A DNA stretch of 64,000 bases. It comes from Rhodocyclaceae bacterium (GTDB taxonomy: Bacteria > Pseudomonadota > Gammaproteobacteria > Burkholderiales > Rhodocyclaceae). The notes beneath the pieces are model-generated. The model searched no databases. It saw nothing but the letters and a program-made list of their open reading frames with translations, and was not told the origin of the DNA. A program made the position numbers and the translations under genes. The stretch spans positions 1 to 64,000 of the forward strand of contig JARRBR010000002.1 of the NCBI GenBank assembly GCA_029982755.1, given 5' to 3'. The first letter of the stretch is position 1; each line of letters begins with the position of its first letter. Shown in pieces: positions 2,981-13,774 of this stretch.

Positions 2981-3019
2981 GCCCGGGTGGCGAAACTGGT
3001 AAACGCAGCGGACTTAAAA
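2981..3019 (+). pseudogene. 5' half of tRNA-Leu(UAA) interrupted by element insertion (attL)
   Basis: gcccgggtggcgaaactggtaaacgcagcggacttaaaa matches acceptor, D-arm, 5' anticodon stem and loop, then stops being tRNA; joins perfectly with 13089-13132. Confidence 0.93.
3011..3019. repeat. att core direct repeat (left copy)
   Basis: gacttaaaa, identical to 13080-13088. Confidence 0.85.
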
Positions 3020-3100
3020 ACTTTCGACACCCTATAATCCTCAACAACTTAGCGCGCTGTGCGTAGTGCGGTGCGTAGTTGATCAGAGGAGGGTAGGGTG

Positions 3101-4216
3101 ATGGGCTCGATTGTCGAAAGGAAGCGCACGGACAAGGCCACCGGCAAGACGGTGACGCAGTACCGGGCACACATCCGCCGCGCTGGCTTCGCGAGCCGCT
3201 CGAAGGTTTTCGCGACCAGGCGCGAGGCTCAGGACTGGTTGCGCAACAACGAGACTGACGCCGCGCTCGAGCGGATCGCGCGACCGCGAGGCAAGACGCT
3301 AGCGGATCTGATCGAAGACTTCGTGCATGCAGGCGTCTGCAAGTACGCATCCCCCGCCCATCTGGAGTTCTGGCGCGACGAGCTTGGCGCTCGCCCGATT
3401 GCCGAGATCACCCACGGCGATATCAACGGCTGTGTGCTGACGCTCCGCACCAGGCGCGCGCATCGCCGCACCCCGGAAGGCATCAAGGCCACCGACAAGG
3501 CATTGACCCCGGCGACGATCAATCGCTATCTGGCCGCTCTGTCCGCCGTCCTCGGTTTCGCCCTGCAACATGGCGTGATCGAAAGCCACCCGATGAAGGG
3601 CGGCAAGGTCAAACGCCTGAAGGAAGGCCCGGGCCGGCAACGCATCCTCACGCCCGACGAAGAATCCCGCCTTCTGGCCGCTGCTGCCGCTGCCCGATGG
3701 GATGGTATGCATCTGTTCGTGCTGATGCTGCTGACCACGGCCGCGCGCAAGTCCGAAGTGCTGAATCTGCGCTGGCGAGACGTCGACCTGGCGCGAGGCT
3801 TTGCCATCCTCGGCAAGACGAAGAACGGGAGCCCGCGCGCCCTGCCGCTGGTGGCCGAAGTCCGAGCCAAGCTGGCGGACGCCGCCAAGGTGCGCCCGCT
3901 CGGCAGCGACTTCGTTTTCTACGACCCCAAGCACCCCGAGCGACCGAAGGACGTCGACACGGTCTGGCGCTTTGTGCGCGCTCGCGCCGGTCTCGACGAT
4001 ACCAACGACCCGCTGCACAAGGTTGTCATGCACACCACCCGCCACACTGGCGTAACGAAGGTGATCCGCAACGGCGCCAACCTGGCACAGGCCGCGCTGA
4101 TCAGCGGACACAAGACGCTCGCCATGCTAAAGCGCTACGAGCACCTGGCCGCAGACGACGTGCTCGAGCTGGCCGAGAAGGCGCTAGGCGACCCGGGCAA
4201 GAAGAACACCGCATGA
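3101..4216 (+). CDS. int: site-specific tyrosine recombinase/integrase
   Basis: TTAARKSEVLNLRWRDV (Arg box I), HTTRHTGVTKVIRNGANLAQAALISGHKTLAMLKRYEHL (HxxR...Y box II). Confidence 0.95.
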   Translation: MGSIVERKRTDKATGKTVTQYRAHIRRAGFASRSKVFATRREAQDWLRNNETDAALERIARPRGKTLADLIEDFVHAGVCKYASPAHLEFWRDELGARPIAEITHGDINGCVLTLRTRRAHRRTPEGIKATDKALTPATINRYLAALSAVLGFALQHGVIESHPMKGGKVKRLKEGPGRQRILTPDEESRLLAAAAAARWDGMHLFVLMLLTTAARKSEVLNLRWRDVDLARGFAILGKTKNGSPRALPLVAEVRAKLADAAKVRPLGSDFVFYDPKHPERPKDVDTVWRFVRARAGLDDTNDPLHKVVMHTTRHTGVTKVIRNGANLAQAALISGHKTLAMLKRYEHLAADDVLELAEKALGDPGKKNTA

Positions 4217-4310
4217 CCGCCGCCTGACGGACTCAGGCAAAAGCGAGCCGACCGAGTGCGGGAACACCTGGCCGGCTCTGACCACCACCCGATCCTAGGG
4301 AGATCGAATC

Positions 4311-4553
4311 ATGGCTATCGAGCATCTTACCAAGCACCACCCCGAACCGGACGCGCTGCAATCCGTCCTTGAGATAGACGCATGCATTGCACAGGCCCGC
4401 GCCATCGTTCGCCTGATGGGCGCGACCGGCCCGGATGAGGCCATGTCCCCGGACACCCGGCAAAACGCCGCCTGGGCTGTTTCGGACCTGCTGGCGCGTA
4501 TCGACAAGGCAACCGGCAAACTTGGCCGGCTGGCCGCTGCTCGGGAGGCGTGA
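4311..4553 (+). CDS. hypothetical protein (80 aa)
   Basis: ORF in a co-directional series, close spacing to the RadC-like ORF; no family recognised. Confidence 0.6.
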   Translation: MAIEHLTKHHPEPDALQSVLEIDACIAQARAIVRLMGATGPDEAMSPDTRQNAAWAVSDLLARIDKATGKLGRLAAAREA

Positions 4554-4555
4554 CC

Positions 4556-5032
4556 ATGAACACACTCGACCTCGCCCGCCGCGACCGCGAAGACCGCACC
4601 ATTGCGCGCGCCCTGCGCATCCTCGAGCGCCGCATGAAGTACGACGCCAAGACGACACCCCTCGTGAGTCCTGACCTTGCCCGGGACTACCTGCGCCTGC
4701 GCCTCGACGGTCTCGACCGGGAGGAGTTCTGGTGCGTCTGGCTGAATGCGGCGCACCAAGTCATTGAGGCTGAATGCATGTCGGTTGGTTCGCTGACGCA
4801 GACCCAAGTCTATTCGCGCGAGATCGTGCGCCGCGCGCTGGAGCACAACGCCGCCGCGGTGATCTTGGCGCACAACCACCCGAGCGGCAGCGCCGAGCCG
4901 AGCGACGGAGACCGGAGGCTTACCGTCGCGCTGCAATCCGCGCTCGCGCTGGTGGACGTGAACGTGCTGGATCACTTCGTAATCGGCGCCGATCCGCGCC
5001 CTGTGTCCTTTGCCGAGCTTGGCCTTCTGTGA
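4556..5032 (+). CDS. RadC-like JAB domain protein
   Basis: VSPDLARDYLRLRLDGLDREEFWCVWLNAAHQVIEAE...AAAVILAHNHPSGSAEPSDGD (HxHPSG...D metal-binding motif). Confidence 0.92.
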   Translation: MNTLDLARRDREDRTIARALRILERRMKYDAKTTPLVSPDLARDYLRLRLDGLDREEFWCVWLNAAHQVIEAECMSVGSLTQTQVYSREIVRRALEHNAAAVILAHNHPSGSAEPSDGDRRLTVALQSALALVDVNVLDHFVIGADPRPVSFAELGLL

Positions 5033-5034
5033 GG

Positions 5035-5274
5035 ATGACCACCATGACCACCGACACCGTTACTCCCGAAGCGCTCGCCGCCCTGCAAATCGATCTTGAG
5101 CGAAGCCGCTCCGACTTCAACATGCTGGCGCTCAAGGCCGGCGAGCTGGCAAGCGCCTTCGGCATCCTGCGAATGGCCATCGAAAACGAACCCGGCCCCG
5201 CCGCCGACCTCGCGCGCATTCTGGAGGAATACACCTGCGATCTGGTCGACGCAGCCCGCAAGCGAGCCGCCTGA
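5035..5274 (+). CDS. hypothetical protein (~79 aa)
   Basis: Short ORF MTTMTTDTVTPEALAALQIDLERSRSDF... in gene series. Confidence 0.6.
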   Translation: MTTMTTDTVTPEALAALQIDLERSRSDFNMLALKAGELASAFGILRMAIENEPGPAADLARILEEYTCDLVDAARKRAA

Positions 5275-5395
5275 CCCCCCCGCCCGGAGTGATCCGGGCA
5301 CCCTCACGCCGCGCCTAGGTCGGCCAACCGAAAACGGGGACACCCTGCCCCGCTGGCGCGGCACCTATCACCAGGGTTCGCCGCATGGGTGGGCG

Positions 5396-6013
5396 ATGTC
5401 CGAATTCTTCCTGATGCCTGACCGCAGGCGCCGCCTGTTGAGCGTGCTACGCAAGCACGACGCCGACCGCGCGGAATACTTCCTGAGCATGTGCGAGCGG
5501 GAGATTGTTTCCTGGCTGAAGACCTGGCCGAACATGCCACCGCCCGCCCGGGACATTCCGTCGCAACTCGAGCACGTGCGCCGCAAAGCATTCGAGCTGT
5601 TCGAGGCGGTCAACGGTCTAGACCACCAGGCAGGATGGATGCTGGCGCACTGGCTGCTATCCCACGAGGACGAAGGCAACTCCCAAGGCGTAATGCCCGC
5701 TGACGTATGGCACGCGCGTGATGCGCTGAAGTTCGATCTATTGCGCCTGGCGCGCGCCGCGCAAGACTGCCACGACCCGCACGAAGGTCCCGCGCCCCGC
5801 CGACCAGATCAAGACCTTTCCGACCGCCTCGCGCGCGCCTACACGGACATTTTCCGGGAACTGCCATCCGTGAACATGGAGGACGGCGTGTTCGCCGCGT
5901 TCTGCGAGGAACTTGCAAACGACATGCCCGAGGGCGTGACCTTCACCGTATCGCGCACCACCCTGGAGCGGTCCCGCCTGCGCTGCGCGTACCTGTTGAA
6001 CGATTCACCTTAG
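5396..6013 (+). CDS. hypothetical protein (205 aa)
   Basis: ORF MSEFFLMPDRRRRLLSVLRKHDADR...; no family recognised. Confidence 0.65.
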   Translation: MSEFFLMPDRRRRLLSVLRKHDADRAEYFLSMCEREIVSWLKTWPNMPPPARDIPSQLEHVRRKAFELFEAVNGLDHQAGWMLAHWLLSHEDEGNSQGVMPADVWHARDALKFDLLRLARAAQDCHDPHEGPAPRRPDQDLSDRLARAYTDIFRELPSVNMEDGVFAAFCEELANDMPEGVTFTVSRTTLERSRLRCAYLLNDSP

Positions 6014-6123
6014 TGAACTCGACCGTGTAAGTTTTCCCCGCAAATCGCCCGAAAAGTTGCACGAGGCTTTTCCGGCTCCCATCTGACCATGTGCGCACCA
6101 CAACCGACTAAAGGACGTGCGCA

Positions 6124-6360
6124 ATGGAAGCCCACAACCCCGCAAGCTTGCCGCTTGATGACCTGCACACGGTCGAAGAACTGGCGAGCAAGTACCCCCG
6201 CATCCTCTCGACGTACACCCTGCGTTGGCAACTGCGCGACCGGGAAAAAAACGGACTCGCGCCGGCCTGCGTTCGCGTCGGCAAAAAGCTGCTGATCAGC
6301 AAGACCCGTTACGAACAATGGCTGGCCGTCCGCGCCGGCAACGCCGCCCGCGCGGCATAA
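6124..6360 (+). CDS. excisionase/AlpA-like small DNA-binding protein (78 aa)
   Basis: LHTVEELASKYPRILSTYTLRWQLRDREKNGLAPACVRVGKKLLISKTRYEQWLA resembles a winged-helix MerR/excisionase-type fold. Confidence 0.65.
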   Translation: MEAHNPASLPLDDLHTVEELASKYPRILSTYTLRWQLRDREKNGLAPACVRVGKKLLISKTRYEQWLAVRAGNAARAA

Positions 6361-6375
6361 CGGGAGGCGCCGACC

Positions 6376-6573
6376 ATGACCGCAAAAGAAAACGCCCCGG
6401 CGATGACCGAGGCGCAAGGCGATACCTACGCCGCCGATTCTACCGCACCCGCCCCCGCGCGCGGCATGTACAACCCCCTGACCTGGCGCCCCGAGAAGCC
6501 CGCCCGATTCCGTGGCAAGGGCAAGCTCCGCACCCGCGCCGATGCCATCGCCCGCAAGCGGGGTGAGGCATGA
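6376..6573 (+). CDS. hypothetical protein (65 aa)
   Basis: Short ORF overlapping the next start by 4 bp (ATGA). Confidence 0.5.
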   Translation: MTAKENAPAMTEAQGDTYAADSTAPAPARGMYNPLTWRPEKPARFRGKGKLRTRADAIARKRGEA

Positions 6574-7142
6574 CGACTTATGCCGTTTTTCCTTCTGGCG
6601 TCGCAGAGTGCTCGCGCTGCGGATGTGACGTGATAGCCGACAACGTGGGCGCCTTTCGCCGCGTGCGCGACCTAGCGCCGAACGCTACGGTCTGCATCGT
6701 GATGTGCGCGACGTGCGCAGATGCCGAAGACGAGCGCAACGAGGCCGCGCAAGCGCCGCCCGCATCGTTGACCCTGACCCGCCGCGGCATCGGCTCGCAT
6801 CCCCGCCGGCATCCTGCGTACGGTAAGGCCCTGGCCGAGAACCCGCCGCCGCCTGACGAACCGCTTACCGTCGCTGTCGGCTGGCAGTACGCAAAGACCT
6901 TCCCGGCGCCGCTGCTGGTCGTGCTGCCCGAGGACAACCCCGTCCGCCTGCGCTTCGACGTGGCAGCCGGCCGGCGCGTGCGTGTGGCGCATCCAGACGA
7001 CGCCGACCCCGAGCGCCTGCTGAGGCTGGCACAGGCGCTTATCGACTACGGCGCACTGTACGTCGACCTGATCGAGCACCCGCCCCGCCCTGGCGCAGCC
7101 AAGCGCGAGCGCCTGCGTGTGCTGGTGGAGGCACCCCGATGA
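6570..7142 (+). CDS. hypothetical protein with Cys pairs (CSRCGCD, CATCAD)
   Basis: 190-aa ORF, ATGA overlap on both sides. Confidence 0.65.
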   Translation: MTTYAVFPSGVAECSRCGCDVIADNVGAFRRVRDLAPNATVCIVMCATCADAEDERNEAAQAPPASLTLTRRGIGSHPRRHPAYGKALAENPPPPDEPLTVAVGWQYAKTFPAPLLVVLPEDNPVRLRFDVAAGRRVRVAHPDDADPERLLRLAQALIDYGALYVDLIEHPPRPGAAKRERLRVLVEAPR

Positions 7143-8701
7143 GTTCAAAGACTCACCTGCACGTCATCGCCGCCACCAAGACACAGCCGCCGCCCCCGTC
7201 CGATCTGCCGGTGATCAAGATCGAAGACGGCAGCCTGCCCGACAACGTGCGCGCGATTGCTGCCGCGCTCGCAAGTGCGCCCGATCTGTTTACGTTCGGG
7301 GAACGGCTGGTGCGCCTGTATTCGGGCGCCAATGGTGCCGCCGTCGTGCCGGTAGAGTCGGCGCATGTTATGGAACTGGTCGGCCTGTATGCGCGCCTGA
7401 CGAAGTTCGACGGCCGAAGCGGAGCCGACCGCCAAGCCGACTGTCCGCGCCGGCTGGCAGACGCTTACATAGCCCGTCGGCATCACCCCGAACACAAGCA
7501 GTTGCATGGCGTGGTGGAGGCACCGACGATCACCGCAGACGGCCGCCTCCTTGATCGACCAGGCTACGACCCAGAGTCCGGCCTGTTCGTGGCCTGCACC
7601 CCATCCGACCTGGCGAACTACCCCGGCATCAACCCGCGCCCGGATGCCGACGACGCAAAAGCCGCGATTGAGCTACTTCTCGACGCACTCGATACCTGGC
7701 CCTTCGTGGAGGCCGGCGACCGATCCGCCGCACTCGCTGCGCTGGTCGGAACCATCGTCCGCCGCTCGATACCGGCCGCACCCATGACCGGCATCACTGC
7801 TACCGCAGCCGGCACCGGGAAAAGCCTGCTTGCCGACTGGATCAGCATCATTGCGACCGGCTCGCGCCCCGCAGTCATGAGCTTGGGCCGCAACGATGAC
7901 GAGAACGAAAAACGCCTTGCGGGCGCCTACCTGGCTGGCGATCCCGTCATCGCGCTCGACAACATCAGCTTTCCGCTTGGCTTCGATCTGTTGTGCCAAG
8001 TCTGCACCCAACCCCGCGCCCGCTTCCGGCCGCTCGGTGGATCTGCACTCGTGACCGTGCCGACGAATGCGCAACTGATCGCCACCGGCAACGCCTTGAC
8101 GATCACCGGAGACCTGAAGCGCCGCGCCCTTCTGATTCGCCTCGACGCCGGCATGGAGCGCCCCGAGCTGCGCCGCTTCGACCGTGACGCGCTCGAATAC
8201 GCACGCGCCGAACGTGGGCGCCTTATCGCCGCCGCGCTCACGATCCCGCTGGCGTACATCGCAGCAGGCTCGCCGCCCGTTGATCTGCCTCCAGTAGGAT
8301 CGTTCACCGAATGGGACCGCCTTGTCCGCCGCCCGCTGCGCTGGCTCGGGTTGCCCGATCCCCTGGCCCCTGCTGAGACATTGCGCGAATTCGATCCCGA
8401 GCTAGAGGCGTCCCGCCTGCTGCTATCGGCATGGTTCGACGCATTCAACACCAAGCCGGTAGGCGCTGCGGAAGTGGTGGCCGCTGCGCTGTCGGTTGGC
8501 GAGGCGACTGGAAACTACCGATACCCCGATCTGCGCGAGGCGTTGCAGTTGATCTGCCACGAGAAGATCACCGCGCGCCGGCTTGGTGGATGGCTGCGCG
8601 CAAACCGCGACCGGATCGTCGACGGACTGCGCGCAGTACAGGCCGGAACAGACGGTCACTCGAAAACCGGCCTGTGGTCGGTTCGACCGGAATGCGGGTA
8701 A
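7139..8701 (+). CDS. P-loop ATPase, replicative primase/helicase-associated type
   Basis: ATAAGTGKSLLADWISIIATG (Walker A), DPVIALDNIS (Walker B-like), VTVPTNAQLIATGNALTITGDLKRRALLIRLD (sensor/Arg-finger-like). Confidence 0.8.
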   Translation: MSSKTHLHVIAATKTQPPPPSDLPVIKIEDGSLPDNVRAIAAALASAPDLFTFGERLVRLYSGANGAAVVPVESAHVMELVGLYARLTKFDGRSGADRQADCPRRLADAYIARRHHPEHKQLHGVVEAPTITADGRLLDRPGYDPESGLFVACTPSDLANYPGINPRPDADDAKAAIELLLDALDTWPFVEAGDRSAALAALVGTIVRRSIPAAPMTGITATAAGTGKSLLADWISIIATGSRPAVMSLGRNDDENEKRLAGAYLAGDPVIALDNISFPLGFDLLCQVCTQPRARFRPLGGSALVTVPTNAQLIATGNALTITGDLKRRALLIRLDAGMERPELRRFDRDALEYARAERGRLIAAALTIPLAYIAAGSPPVDLPPVGSFTEWDRLVRRPLRWLGLPDPLAPAETLREFDPELEASRLLLSAWFDAFNTKPVGAAEVVAAALSVGEATGNYRYPDLREALQLICHEKITARRLGGWLRANRDRIVDGLRAVQAGTDGHSKTGLWSVRPECG

Positions 8702-8704
8702 AGC

Positions 8705-8807
8705 GGTATTTGCGGGATGTGTCTCCGCTCACGTGGGAAAAGTGTCAGTGACATATTTAGGGAATGAGTGGGAACACACCCCGCAAACACCGCAAATACC
8801 GCAACAC
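8705..8807. other. candidate iteron cluster / replication origin
   Basis: Tandem 9-mers ccgcaaaca-ccgcaaata-ccgcaacac at 8781-8807 and an inverted copy ggtatttgcgg at 8705-8715, in the gap after the ATPase gene. Confidence 0.5.
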
Positions 8808-8916
8808 CCGCGCGGAACTTGGGTCCTCCTGTGGGCAAACCACAGAGGGTACGCAGAGTCGCGGTTCCTGTGTAGTTAGGGGCTATTACAAGACTTTAAA
8901 GAAATAGGATTTCGCT

Positions 8917-9447
8917 ATGAATCAGACCGAAATGGCACATCTAGTAGGCGTGTCGCCCATGACCGTTTCCAACTGGGTCCGCGAGGGCATGCCATGCCGG
9001 CACCCTGGCGGACGGGGGCGCGCGTCGGATATCGACCTTGCCACCGCCCTCGAATGGCTGGCAAAGCGCGGCATCCGGCCGAACGTGGCGCGAGATCACG
9101 CGCTGGTGATCCCGACCGACCAGGCGCCGGAAGACGACGACAGCGCCGGCGAGGATGGCGCCGACTACAAGGCCAGCCGCGCCAAGCGCGAGCACTACGC
9201 CGCCGCACGCGAGGAAATGCGCTACCGGCAAGAGGCCGGCGAGCTGATGGTGGCTGCCGAGGTGGAAACCGCCGTAGCGGCCGCCTGCACCACCATCCGC
9301 ACCGCCCTAGAGGCGCTGCCCGACGCGCTCGCGCCACGCCTAGCCGCGATCACGGATGAAAATGAGTGTCGGAGCCTGCTTGCGGCCGAGATCGAGCACA
9401 CGCTCGAACAGTTGAGCGCCGATTTGTTGCGCGCACCCAAAGCATGA
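8917..9447 (+). CDS. phage terminase small subunit (Nu1-like)
   Basis: MNQTEMAHLVGVSPMTVSNWVREGMPCRHPGGRGRASDIDLATALEWLAKRG HTH followed by the typical helical C-terminal region. Confidence 0.85.
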   Translation: MNQTEMAHLVGVSPMTVSNWVREGMPCRHPGGRGRASDIDLATALEWLAKRGIRPNVARDHALVIPTDQAPEDDDSAGEDGADYKASRAKREHYAAAREEMRYRQEAGELMVAAEVETAVAAACTTIRTALEALPDALAPRLAAITDENECRSLLAAEIEHTLEQLSADLLRAPKA

Positions 9448-9824
9448 GCACCGAACTTGCCCGCCGCGCTGCCGCTGGCGACACCAGCCCCGAGGTCTCC
9501 CGCTGGTGGTGCGAGGCCATGCGCCGACACCTCGACGGTGACGACCTCGACCAGGCGCTAAGGCTCGACCGAGCATCGCGCCTGCGCGAGCGCAACCGGG
9601 CGTTGAAGGACGCCGCCGCCCTGCTGGCCGCCGACGATGGCCCTTGGCGCTGTGCCTGCCGCCTGGAGGCCGCGATTCGGCGCCACGAGGCCCGCATTGC
9701 GCCGCTTCTGGCGCGCGACCCGGCAACGACCCTAGCGCCGATAGACGAGGCGCTGCGCCGCGCCTTCGACACCCGGCAGCGCGTACCGACCACGGCCCGC
9801 AATCTGTTCGATCTGATCCGCTGA
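9444..9824 (+). CDS. hypothetical protein (126 aa)
   Basis: ATGA overlap with the small terminase gene. Confidence 0.65.
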   Translation: MSTELARRAAAGDTSPEVSRWWCEAMRRHLDGDDLDQALRLDRASRLRERNRALKDAAALLAADDGPWRCACRLEAAIRRHEARIAPLLARDPATTLAPIDEALRRAFDTRQRVPTTARNLFDLIR

Positions 9825-9900
9825 CGCAACACTGATGCAATAGGCCGAAAGCATCAGCAGGAAGTGGGCAGCATTGGACCGTACCCAATCGGAGACCCCC

Positions 9901-10920
9901 ATGCTGAACCACAATCCCCGCGACATCCTCGCCGCTGGCGCCGACGCCATCGCCGCCGCCTTCAACGTCCCGAACCGCACCCCGCACCCGCTTGTTGATG
10001 AACTGGCCAGCGCGCCGCTGTCGCGCCTGGCCTATGCCGCTGGCCTCGCCATCCGGCCGCAGCAGTCGCACGAAAACGACCGCGCGGTTATGGCTCGCGG
10101 AATGACCTCATCCGACTACGCCGGCCTGCTCGCTTCCGCAAGCACCACGCTTGCAAATCGCCGCTTCGCCGCCGTGGCCGAACATCGCGCGTTCTGCGCG
10201 ACCGTCGAATGCCGCGACTTCAAGCCGATGGAGATCGCCACCGCCGACGTCGACGGCGAGCTGCCCGCCGTAGGCGAGCTGCAAGAAGTCGCCTACGGTC
10301 ACGTGCTGGTTGGCAATGGCGCTACGGCGCAACTGCGCGCCTTCGCCCGTGTGCTGCGCGCCTCGCGCACGCTGATTGTCAATGACGCCGCCGGCATGCT
10401 GGCCGCTGCCGTCGAAAACCTGGGCACCGCCGCTGCGCGCACCGAGGCGCGCGAGGTGTACAGCGTTTTCGAGGCTGATGCGCCGATGGAAGATGGCGAG
10501 CTTCCGTTCCATGCCGACCACGGCAACATCGTCGCAAGTGCGCTCGATGCGACCAGTCTGGGCGCCGCAATGGCCGCGCTGCGCACGATGACGTTGATCG
10601 GTGGCAATCAAGCAGACCTGAGCGCCGCGCACCTTGTTGTTGCTGCCGGCCTCGAGCTGGCCGCCCGCAAGCTGGTGCACGAATCCGGGCTGGCAATCAC
10701 CGTGACCGCATCCGGCCGCCTGGCTACCGGCCGATGGTATCTGCTGCCGAGCCCCGAGGCCGCGCCGACCGTTGCCGTTCTGCGGCTGAAGGGCAGTACC
10801 CAGCCGGTATTGATCGAACCGTGGCAGGAGGAATTCAGCTTCGATGGCGCGGTTATGCGCGGTTCATGCGATACCGGCGCGGTGCTGGTCGCGCGGACCC
10901 TGATCCGTGGGGGAGCGTGA
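9901..10920 (+). CDS. HK97-fold phage major capsid protein
   Basis: HENDRAVMARGMTSSDYAGLLAS...LQEVAYGHVLVGNGATAQLRAFARVLRASRTLIVNDAAGML...GRWYLLPSPEAAPTVAVLRLKGSTQPVLIEPWQEEFSFDGAVMRGSCDTGAVLVARTLIRGG resembles the capsid part of protease-MCP fusion proteins. Confidence 0.85.
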   Translation: MLNHNPRDILAAGADAIAAAFNVPNRTPHPLVDELASAPLSRLAYAAGLAIRPQQSHENDRAVMARGMTSSDYAGLLASASTTLANRRFAAVAEHRAFCATVECRDFKPMEIATADVDGELPAVGELQEVAYGHVLVGNGATAQLRAFARVLRASRTLIVNDAAGMLAAAVENLGTAAARTEAREVYSVFEADAPMEDGELPFHADHGNIVASALDATSLGAAMAALRTMTLIGGNQADLSAAHLVVAAGLELAARKLVHESGLAITVTASGRLATGRWYLLPSPEAAPTVAVLRLKGSTQPVLIEPWQEEFSFDGAVMRGSCDTGAVLVARTLIRGGA

Positions 10921-11387
10921 TGTTCGAGAAATCCGCCGCCGACCGCTATCTGGCCGCCGTCAAGGTGCTGACGAAAGCCGAGGCGGCACACCGCAAGAAC
11001 CTCGACCTGCTCTATCAGGCGATGGACGCAAAGCAAGCGCACCAGGTCACGCCCCTGCGCCGGGACTGCGAACGGTCGGAGCGCGCATTGCAGGACGCAT
11101 TGCAGGCCGCGCACGATGCCCACCGCGCGTACTGGACGCAGCGCCGGGACGCCATACGCGACGAACTCGACCGCGCCGCACTGGTGATTGCCGAATTCGA
11201 CGCCTTTGCGCTGCTCGCTGGTGACCGGGCGCCACACCCGGCGCTGCGGTATCTGCAAGGCCGCGCCCTGGAAGGCCGCACCGCCGCGAACCTGCTCGAC
11301 CAGGACGTGCTGGCGACGCACGGCGTACCACAAGAGGCGCCCGATTCGGCGCTGCTGGAAGACGAGCGCGGCGCTTGGCGACCCTGA
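10920..11387 (+). CDS. hypothetical coiled-coil-type protein (155 aa)
   Basis: Start overlaps the MCP stop (TGATG); long helical, charged sequence. Confidence 0.65.
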   Translation: MFEKSAADRYLAAVKVLTKAEAAHRKNLDLLYQAMDAKQAHQVTPLRRDCERSERALQDALQAAHDAHRAYWTQRRDAIRDELDRAALVIAEFDAFALLAGDRAPHPALRYLQGRALEGRTAANLLDQDVLATHGVPQEAPDSALLEDERGAWRP

Positions 11388-11519
11388 ACACCCTGCGGGG
11401 CGTGAAAAGCCTAGCGGTAGGCACCGGGCGCGGCTGACAGGCTGAAACAGCGCGCAAGGCAGACCACCGGACGCCGATTGGAAACCGGCTGCAAGGTCTG
11501 CCACCCACCGAGACCACCT

Positions 11520-12044
11520 ATGACCTACACCCACCCGCCGCGTGCCGCCCTGGGCCGTATTCATCCGCTGGCCGACGTGCCGGCCGCGATCAAGGGCGCA
11601 TCGTTGGAGCGCACCGCGCACCACGAGGCCGGGCACGTCGTGCTGATGGAGTGGGCCGGACTGACCCCCACGAAGGCGAGTGCATCCGCTGGCAACGGCC
11701 TAGCCGAATGGGATTTGGCCGAGATCGGCGCCGACGATCCGCCCACCGACCATGACCGCCCGCTGGCCGCTGCACAGGCCGCAGCCGTGATGCACGCCGG
11801 CATCTGCGCAGAATTGATCTACGTCGGGCACCGATGGCAGGGCGTGACCGTCCGCATGCGCTCGAAGGATTGGCAGCTCGCGTGCATGCTGCTTGCGCAG
11901 CACTTCGGCCCCGGTCTGGCAGGGCACGGATTCTCACAGCGCACAGCCCTTGCGGTGCTGACGCAGCACTGGCCGCGCGTACAACAGATCGCCGCCCACC
12001 TGATCGAGCATGGCACCTGGAGACCTGAAAATGAGCAGAGCTGA
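11520..12044 (+). CDS. HEAGH-motif protein, M41/FtsH peptidase-domain-like
   Basis: LERTAHHEAGHVVLMEWAGLTP...AAAQAAAVMHAGICAELIYVG resembles the FtsH HEAGH and downstream AAE-type segment. Confidence 0.65.
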   Translation: MTYTHPPRAALGRIHPLADVPAAIKGASLERTAHHEAGHVVLMEWAGLTPTKASASAGNGLAEWDLAEIGADDPPTDHDRPLAAAQAAAVMHAGICAELIYVGHRWQGVTVRMRSKDWQLACMLLAQHFGPGLAGHGFSQRTALAVLTQHWPRVQQIAAHLIEHGTWRPENEQS

Positions 12045-12219
12045 ACGCATCATCGACGAGTGCAAGCGCCGGGAGCTGACAGTAGAGCGCACCGGCAATG
12101 TATGGCGCATCTTCGGGCGTGGCGTGGATATCCGCGTCCTGCACTTGGAACACGTCGACCTGAACGAACTGAACCCGCTGCACCCTGGCCCGCGCACCGC
12201 CTGGCGCGAAGCACGCTGA
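12031..12219 (+). CDS. hypothetical protein (62 aa)
   Basis: MSRAERIIDECKRRELTVERTGNVWRIFGRGVDIRVLHLEHVDLNELNPLHP; overlaps adjacent genes at start and stop. Confidence 0.6.
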   Translation: MSRAERIIDECKRRELTVERTGNVWRIFGRGVDIRVLHLEHVDLNELNPLHPGPRTAWREAR

Positions 12220-12518
12220 TGCGCTGCTGCGCCTGCTGCCGAATGCCCGCCCCGCTGGCTGTCGTGCATCCCGGCGAGATCCACGGCATCGGCGTGACCT
12301 TCGGCCTCTGCGCCCGCTGCGAGCTGGCAAACACCAGGCTTCCGGCCGGTACGCGGCAGAAGCGCCTCAACAGCGCCGCCGACCTGGCCGCACGCGACAC
12401 CAGCGGCCGATTCTGGACCGCTAGATTCCCCGACCAAGACGCCGCCGCACTGGCCGCACACATGCTCGCGCACCCCGACACCGCACCCGATACCGCCGCC
12501 GCCTTGGGCTGGCGGTAG
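12219..12518 (+). CDS. hypothetical protein with Cys clusters (99 aa)
   Basis: MRCCACCRMPAPLAVVHPGEIHGIGVTFGLCARC; overlaps previous stop (TGATG). Confidence 0.55.
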   Translation: MRCCACCRMPAPLAVVHPGEIHGIGVTFGLCARCELANTRLPAGTRQKRLNSAADLAARDTSGRFWTARFPDQDAAALAAHMLAHPDTAPDTAAALGWR

Positions 12519-12571
12519 TGTGCTCAAGACTGAGCGCGCCCCAACCCCCATTGGGGGATGAACCGTGGACA

Positions 12572-12601
12572 GGTGACGCCCTCGCGCGCGCGGGCTTCTC
12601 C
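12572..12601 (+). repeat. 30-bp direct repeat, copy 1
   Basis: ggtgacgccctcgcgcgcgcgggcttctcc, identical to 12633-12662. Confidence 0.95.
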
Positions 12602-12632
12602 GTTCAAGTGGGAAAAATTTCCCGCTTGATCT

Positions 12633-12662
12633 GGTGACGCCCTCGCGCGCGCGGGCTTCTCC
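12633..12662 (+). repeat. 30-bp direct repeat, copy 2
   Basis: Identical to 12572-12601, 61-bp period. Confidence 0.95.
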
Positions 12663-12820
12663 CCCAATGGGGGAAAATCCCACCGAGGCCGACGCCATCG
12701 CGCGCGTGGAGCCGAGCCGTAGCCTTTTCCTCAGACTGAGGACAAGCAACCGCCGCCACGCGCTGGAGCCTTTCCCTGCATTGCAGGTAAGGCCCGACCT
12801 CGCGCGGAGTTCTATCAAAC

Positions 12821-12904
12821 TGGTGCCCGGGACGGGACTCGAACCCGTAAGCCGTAGGCGATGGATTTTAAGTCCACTGCGGTTACCAATTTCGCCACCC
12901 GGGC
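12821..12904 (-). tRNA. complete tRNA-Leu (UAA) carried by the element
   Basis: Reverse complement gcccgggtggcgaaattggtaaccgcagtggacttaaaatccatcgcctacggcttacgggttcgagtcccgtcccgggcacca; full cloverleaf with variable arm and CCA. Confidence 0.96.
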
Positions 12905-12923
12905 AGGGCGCGCATTGTACCAA

Positions 12924-12953
12924 GTGCATAACTTCGTGCGTAAATCGTGCGTA
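12924..12953. repeat. candidate integrase arm-type sites (right end)
   Basis: gtgcata 12924, gtgcgta 12936, gtgcgta 12947 (11-12 bp spacing); matching gtgcgta copies at 3059 and 3071 on the left end. Confidence 0.55.
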
Positions 12954-13079
12954 ATCGACAGCCGCAAAGCACCTCAAATCATCACATCGAACCGCACAAG
13001 GACGAAAAGCACCACGATCAAGGACCAGTAAAACTAAGTGTTATAGCGTGATCCTATGCGCTTCGTTGTGTTCGATATT

Positions 13080-13132
13080 GACTTAAAATCCGCCGCCTCA
13101 AGGCTTACGGGTTCGACCCCCGTCCCGGGCAC
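13080..13132 (+). pseudogene. 3' half of the interrupted tRNA-Leu(UAA) (attR)
   Basis: gacttaaaatccgccgcctcaaggcttacgggttcgacccccgtcccgggcacca; anticodon stem gcgga/tccgc and acceptor gcccggg/cccgggc are only completed by 2981-3019. Confidence 0.93.
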
Positions 13133-13189
13133 CACCTTCCGCGCGTCATGTCCGGCGCGGCACAGCGGGCATCGACCGACGGGGCGCGC

Positions 13190-13774
13190 TCACTCGAGCC
13201 GCTGCGATTCCGCGATCAGCGCACCGAGCAGCTGGAACGCCTTCTCCTCGGAGAGCTTGTCGGCGGCGGAAAGGTTGAGGATGGTCTTGGCCAGCGCCTC
13301 GGCAATCGGGCCGCAGCTCCCCGCGGTCTTGTCGAAGAGCCGGTTGGACGTCGTTCGAGTGGCCGCGTCCTGAATGCTGACGTCCGGACCGATGTCCGGC
13401 TGGGAACGCTCCGGCGGCGGCGTCCGAGCGGGAGCGGCGGCACCGTCGGCACGCAGGCTTCGCCATGCCGGTTCGGGGACGTCGCCCTCGCTATGGCGCT
13501 GATCCAGCCAGCCGCGCACCAGACCCAGTGCGTCCTCGATGGCGAAGGCGAAAGGGTCCGAAACCGGCTTGCGTGCCGACGTCATCAGGCTGATGCGGCT
13601 GCCCGAGGTACCGGCCAGCTGGGCGAGGCGGTTCTTGGTTCCGCGTGCGCCGGTCAGCATGATCAGGTTCAGGCGCCGGTTCTCCAGGGTCTGCTTGCGA
13701 TCGCTCGCCGGCATCCATTCCGCGCGCTGGGCATCGGTCGTGGCCGCTACCGGGTCTTCGACGATATTGGTCAT
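13190..13774 (-). CDS. hypothetical protein (194 aa)
   Basis: MTNIVEDPVAATTDAQRAEWMPASDRKQTLENRRLNLIMLTGARGTKNRLAQLAGTSGSRISLMTS...; no firm family. Confidence 0.65.
   Translation of the reverse strand: MTNIVEDPVAATTDAQRAEWMPASDRKQTLENRRLNLIMLTGARGTKNRLAQLAGTSGSRISLMTSARKPVSDPFAFAIEDALGLVRGWLDQRHSEGDVPEPAWRSLRADGAAAPARTPPPERSQPDIGPDVSIQDAATRTTSNRLFDKTAGSCGPIAEALAKTILNLSAADKLSEEKAFQLLGALIAESQRLE

Follow-up and report, generated by a model that had tools for sequence, protein, structure and literature searches.

In the window (the whole 64,000-nt stretch of Rhodocyclaceae bacterium contig JARRBR010000002.1 that was analysed), the gap between the last late gene of a satellite-like provirus and an inverted rescue tRNA-Leu(UAA) gene is filled by an array of short DNA dyads interleaved with a GC-rich motif. 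We tentatively interpret this array as a bidirectional terminator and insulator made of hairpins without U-tracts, conserved in shape only, that would shield what is apparently the cell's single intact copy of tRNA-Leu(UAA). The case for a function of the array is positional, and it may serve in the putative role of ending transcription. This reading is the most economical because the slot is convergent, borders an apparently needed tRNA and holds terminators in several relatives, and an element read as hairpins fits because position and folding on both strands are conserved and the letters are not. The features on which the argument draws are as follows.

3011 to 3019, plus strand: left att core GACTTAAAA (9 nt), in the split host tRNA-Leu gene; the uninterrupted site is present in G194
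8694 to 8811, no strand: 22-nt inverted repeat of CCGCAAATACCGC type, origin candidate, between the primase-like gene and terS
12219 to 12518, plus strand: last late gene, encoding a 99-aa Cys-rich protein, common to G139, G279, G400 and G048
12519 to 12820, no strand: dyad array, filling the whole gap from the last late gene to the inverted rescue tRNA; delimited by dyad count against shuffles and by fold z
12522 to 12535, no strand: dyad 1, gctcaagactgagc, 5-bp arms and 4-nt centre
12545 to 12557, no strand: dyad 2, cccccattggggg, matching dyad 4 in reverse complement
12575 to 12593, plus strand: motif copy 1, GACGCCCTCGCGCGCGCGG, within an identical 30-nt context (12572-12601)
12604 to 12629, no strand: dyad 3, tcaagtgggaaaaatttcccgcttga, 26 nt, one position mismatched, at the middle of the large nested hairpin
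12636 to 12654, plus strand: motif copy 2, identical to copy 1
12660 to 12674, no strand: dyad 4, tcccccaatggggga, a 13-mer extending to 15
12691 to 12709, plus strand: motif copy 3, GACGCCATCGCGCGCGTGG
12728 to 12742, no strand: dyad 5, tcctcagactgagga
12755 to 12770, plus strand: degenerate motif copy 4 (gccacgcgctggagcc), read by eye and missed by the repeat tool
12775 to 12787, no strand: dyad 6, cctgcattgcagg
12821 to 12904, minus strand: rescue copy, an intact inverted tRNA-Leu(UAA) (ARAGORN and Rfam)
12914 to 12919, minus strand: TACAAT box upstream of the rescue tRNA, read by eye; also in three other elements
12935 to 12954, plus strand: CGTGCGTAA repeats, possible integrase arm sites, read by eye; the tRNA separates them from the array
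13080 to 13134, plus strand: right att core (13080-13088) and the 3' half of the split host tRNA-Leu

One end of a satellite-like provirus of ~10 kb (3020-13088) carries the array; the provirus splits the tRNA-Leu(UAA) gene in its anticodon loop, the 9-nt core bounding both ends, and in the related genome G194, with matching flanks, this tRNA gene is uninterrupted. The element carries genes for an integrase, a RadC-like protein, a 78-aa AlpA-like protein (so called from its position after the int-alpA RNA, as it has no library match), a primase/helicase-like protein, TerS (phrog_57) and a Phage_capsid_4 head protein, as well as several short late genes, a set that, judged from gene content, resembles that of a phage satellite; no helper phage was identified for it. 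The last of these genes, for the 99-aa Cys-rich protein, had zero Pfam or PHROG matches, and proteins of its family (MRCCACCRMPAP...; L126-L130, L195-L197) are encoded by the final gene in several distinct integrated elements of the bacterial family. Because this gene lies on the plus strand and the rescue tRNA, with its TACAAT box, on the minus strand, the late genes and the rescue tRNA converge on the array, a layout read from gene orientation and the promoter-like box. The rescue copy is the sole intact tRNA-Leu(UAA) found in G000 (86% complete) and in G139 (one contig); the complete genomes that were checked hold one close intact match to it each, and further matches at 73-77% are taken to be other leucine tRNAs.

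The same target is used more widely. In elements with related integrases from three genera (that of the window; L121, L054, L122/L124), the break in tRNA-Leu(UAA) falls in the anticodon loop, and a complete tRNA copy, inverted and preceded by a TACAAT box, lies within the right end. A further locus (G291:C1:2623115-2662919; L207-L209) has the two halves of tRNA-Leu(UAA) separated by ~40 kb and, between them in the same orientation, a tRNA copy that is intact, more divergent and without an adjoining dyad array; it is a different element at the same target.

Evaluating the array itself, we found all six dyads that the earlier note had reported between 12522 and 12787, in numbers far above those of dinucleotide shuffles. 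Perfect dyads with arms of at least 6 (centres of 0-5 nt allowed) number five against 0.6 expected, a count reached in 0 of 1000 shuffles in one run and 2 of 1000 in another. As predictions from sequence rather than in-cell structure (a qualification that applies to dyad counts as well), the fold z values of the 302-nt gap taken as a single strand are -7.5 (plus) and -7.4 (minus) for RNA and -7.3 for DNA, with 0 shuffles folding as well. No stretch of the element folds better, on either strand: among its 250-nt windows (mean z -0.3, sd 1.5) the lowest value, -6.0, belongs to the array and the runner-up, -5.6 at 8651, to the origin candidate. The dyads at 12545 and 12660 are exact reverse-complement copies over 14 nt, and in the predicted fold can pair with each other, placing the 26-nt dyad at the centre of a single large nested hairpin. 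For the 13- and 15-mers with 1-nt centres the predicted folds are stems of 5-6 bp closed by 3-nt loops, which means that such centres do not exclude RNA hairpins; the contrary statement of the earlier note was wrong, and its dismissal of a terminator on this ground was unjustified. Several GC-rich stems of 5-12 bp are present, giving the hairpins of at least 5 bp expected of intrinsic terminators, and predicted hairpins are available from either strand, as expected of convergent terminators, whereas a terminator scan detected no U-tract directly 3' of a stem on either strand of the array. No Rfam match was obtained for the array at the gathering score, the window's matches being the tRNA, sX8 and int-alpA only.

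The GC-rich spacers between the dyads proved to be true direct repeats of one motif, with 12572-12616 and 12633-12677 being 87% identical, GACGCCMTCGCGCGCGYGG present at 12575, 12636 and 12691, and GGTGACGCCCTCGCGCGCGCGGGCTTCTCC standing identical ahead of two different dyads. The array is thus better described as 3-5 tandem units of motif plus dyad in which the motif precedes the dyad, so that of the proposal that dyads are followed by similar spacers, the likeness held and the order is better reversed. The reading as a dispersed genomic repeat was rejected, because a search of the array's genome (86% complete) returned the array itself as sole match and the other motif matches examined lacked dyad arrays. 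A scan of 85,462 genomes for the two-motif-copy pattern gave 13 matches, the one that was read (L116, a two-match locus) being a tandem repeat within coding sequence; applied to IMG/VR, the pattern gave zero matches, a looser one-copy scan gave two chance-like ones, and similarity searches against phage and plasmid records matched the tRNA alone. Locus L141 looked suggestive and on inspection is not an array, and the other dyad-dense places in the window (29.6 kb and 36.3 kb) overlap long reading frames.

Comparison with relatives, drawn from genome searches that sampled the bacterial family (up to ~400 genomes each), is based on four arrays, two of them full and two partial. The second full array lies in the same slot of G139 element A (L121), from the same genus, whose integrase, AlpA-like protein, last gene and rescue tRNA are 90%, 85%, 71% and 95% identical to those of the window's element. 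Its gap holds the dyads ccggaattccgg, agcaggaactcctgct, ctctgcagatctgcagag (twice) and tctggtctacgaccaga together with repeated GCCATCGGGTGCGCGGGGG, amounting to five dyads versus 0.34 in shuffles; fold z is -7.6 and -8.3 on the two strands, nowhere else in that element is folding as strong, and the terminator scan found no U-tract terminator in it. The two arrays have no 9-mer in common (cgccatcg matches, at 8 nt only), and their dyads do not align, although their flanks do so readily. The claim that sequence varies while symmetry is kept is supported by this pair, which folds equally well; it may reflect selection or a mutational process that rebuilds palindromes. Two arrays of similar shape and unrelated letters make a natural pair for asking whether selection or template switching maintains the palindromes. 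As a separate difference between the two elements, whose ends match on both sides, a 1029-aa reading frame in G139 element A (L121 8856-11945), standing where the window's element has its capsid gene, looks like a tail tape-measure protein.

The partial arrays are found in G400, which has one motif copy and a 10-bp dyad after the same last gene in a gap that as a whole is not unusually structured, and at a second G139 locus (L192, L198; G139:C1 about 1264900), where a fragment of the last gene is followed by CCGGAATTCCGG and ATACCCAggattTGGGTAT, both resembling the dyads of element A, with gacggta repeats adjoining. Four other relatives sharing the last gene (G279-C10, G048, G264 and G139-B) possess U-tract hairpin terminators in or near the slot, that of G139-B lying beyond the presumed att repeats and so near the slot rather than inside it, and G279-C56, with this last gene too, has a single 10-bp hairpin with short A/T flanks in or near the slot. 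A 16S fragment in G048 looks like that of Rhodocyclaceae, a lead to the family of the host. G026 and G144 (integrases 59% and 76% identical) have the integrase family, the target and the inverted tRNA in common with the window's element and not the last gene, and no dyads or hairpin were found in their gaps. Genome searches with the primase-like and capsid proteins reached elements that have no array at this slot, L100 among them, and IMG/VR returned no relatives of the last gene, integrase or capsid.

To connect these observations, we infer that the array would act as the 3'-end and insulation zone between the late operon on its left and the inverted rescue tRNA-Leu(UAA) on its right. Transcription of either strand would make an RNA hairpin from each palindrome, a series of such hairpins lacking U-tracts would cause polymerases to pause, and head-on collision and/or Rho might then end both transcripts within the array. 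Readthrough from the late operon would thereby be kept from going antisense over the apparently indispensable tRNA gene, and, were folding ability alone to matter, arm sequences would be free to change, perhaps as template switching rebuilds the palindromes. In favour of this scheme are the convergent layout, the TACAAT box conserved in four elements and fold z values near -7.5 on both strands of both arrays, and a structural study of converging E. coli polymerases describes nascent-transcript hairpins that position head-on collisions and bidirectional termination sites (PMC13082048). Against it, there is no U-tract on either strand of either array, one hairpin would suffice, leaving five or six dyads and a repeated GC-rich motif unexplained, the dyads are palindromic almost to the centre as RNA hairpins need not be, and G026 and G144 have the inverted tRNA with no hairpin found in the gap. 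If both transcripts do end in the array, an element that breaks an apparently essential tRNA gene would keep late transcription off its replacement copy by means of hairpins that lack U-tracts.

Among known systems, the array is best filed as a possible variant of the convergent bidirectional terminator (PMC13082048 and work cited there), with which it shares hairpin-forming DNA between facing genes that would act from either strand, its relatives carrying ordinary terminators in or near the slot; it differs in having not one hairpin but five or six palindromes in tandem, accompanied by a repeated GC-rich motif and lacking a U-tract, and termination by it is a prediction. Intrinsic (Rho-independent) terminators (PMC5381666) are likewise GC-rich operon-end hairpins whose stems evolve by compensatory change, letters changing and pairing being kept, whereas the array is without a U-tract and none of its hairpins passes the terminator scan. 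REP/BIME elements also have a short motif followed by a palindrome in tandem, and unlike them the array is not dispersed in the genome (86% complete) and varies in palindrome sequence between units. As for the element, islands that restore a split tRNA gene (Islander database, PMC4383910) similarly combine an integrase, a tRNA target and element-borne sequence that repairs the broken gene, whereas here the element brings a complete, inverted replacement gene, equipped with a promoter-like box, and the split falls in the anticodon loop. No family in the libraries searched matches such an array, nor does any paper found by a few queries of the open-licence literature.

A serious, if rather unlikely, alternative to termination is that the array has no function and is maintained by mutation, with template switching at replication, which is able to create and repair stems (PMC8794818), perfecting imperfect inverted repeats and copying them in inverse orientation in a stretch that tolerates change. 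The exact reverse complementarity of the dyads at 12545 and 12660, the two motif copies identical over 30 nt with unrelated dyads after them, the 18-mer dyad present twice in G139 element A and dyads perfect nearly to the centre are all consistent with such a process, as are the relatives that manage without any array. However, two elements with no 9-mer in common here have both retained five dyads and a z near -7.5, and each element has its extreme at the array, where a neutral process should leave palindromes elsewhere too.

We consider it unlikely that the array is instead a DNA-level cis site of the excised element, used in packaging, replication, partition or maintenance and recognised by the shape of the cruciforms or single-strand hairpins that its palindromes would extrude next to a conserved GC-rich motif. 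Most dyads are symmetric to centres of 0-2 nt, the gap folds as DNA with z -7.3, and the motif (GCCMTCG-GCGCG) partly survives in G139 element A and G400 where the dyads do not, all of which would suit such a site. The origin suggested in the earlier note is disfavoured, since ~3.8 kb separate the array from the primase-like gene, the dyads lack conservation, and the inverted repeat at 8694-8811, which has a similarly arranged counterpart in the sister element, is a better candidate; the array resembles iteron-type origins of phage satellites and plasmids in having dyad-symmetric, intergenic repeats in a satellite-like element, and differs in this lack of conservation and in the better iteron-like candidate beside the primase-like gene and terS. 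Attachment is disfavoured because G026 and G144, with related integrases and the same target, are without the array, and the integrase-arm-like repeats, whose CGTGCGTAA-like counterparts occur in other elements too, here adjoin the att core, with the tRNA between them and the array. Cos sites of the lambda type are found close to terS, and the distance of ~3 kb from terS to the array weighs against the suggested packaging site; nothing ties the array to TerS, and other TerS- or capsid-bearing relatives are without an array at this slot.

It is likewise doubtful, if conceivable, that the array represents a new kind of phage-satellite cis-element, with motif-plus-palindrome units conserved in shape and hypervariable in sequence, selected on DNA or RNA symmetry alone, that would either insulate the rescue tRNA or be recognised by shape during mobilisation. 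A structured small RNA acting on the host or a helper phage, such as a stable piece from the 3' end of the tRNA transcript or the late one, is very improbable, for although both arrays fold strongly as RNA on both strands and the window's array immediately follows both the rescue tRNA and the late operon in their directions of transcription, there is no Rfam match, folding is equal on the two strands with neither favoured, and the two arrays have no conserved loop or seed between them.

Apart from the array, iteron-like inverted repeats were observed between the primase-like gene and terS in both elements, namely those of CCGCAAATACCGC type in the window (8694-8811) and AACACCCGCAACACCCGC in G139 element A (L121, about 13040-13310), and likewise in G150 (L100 10380-10575), where CCTAGG repeats stand just upstream of a TerS-like gene. 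We interpret these three regions as likely origins.
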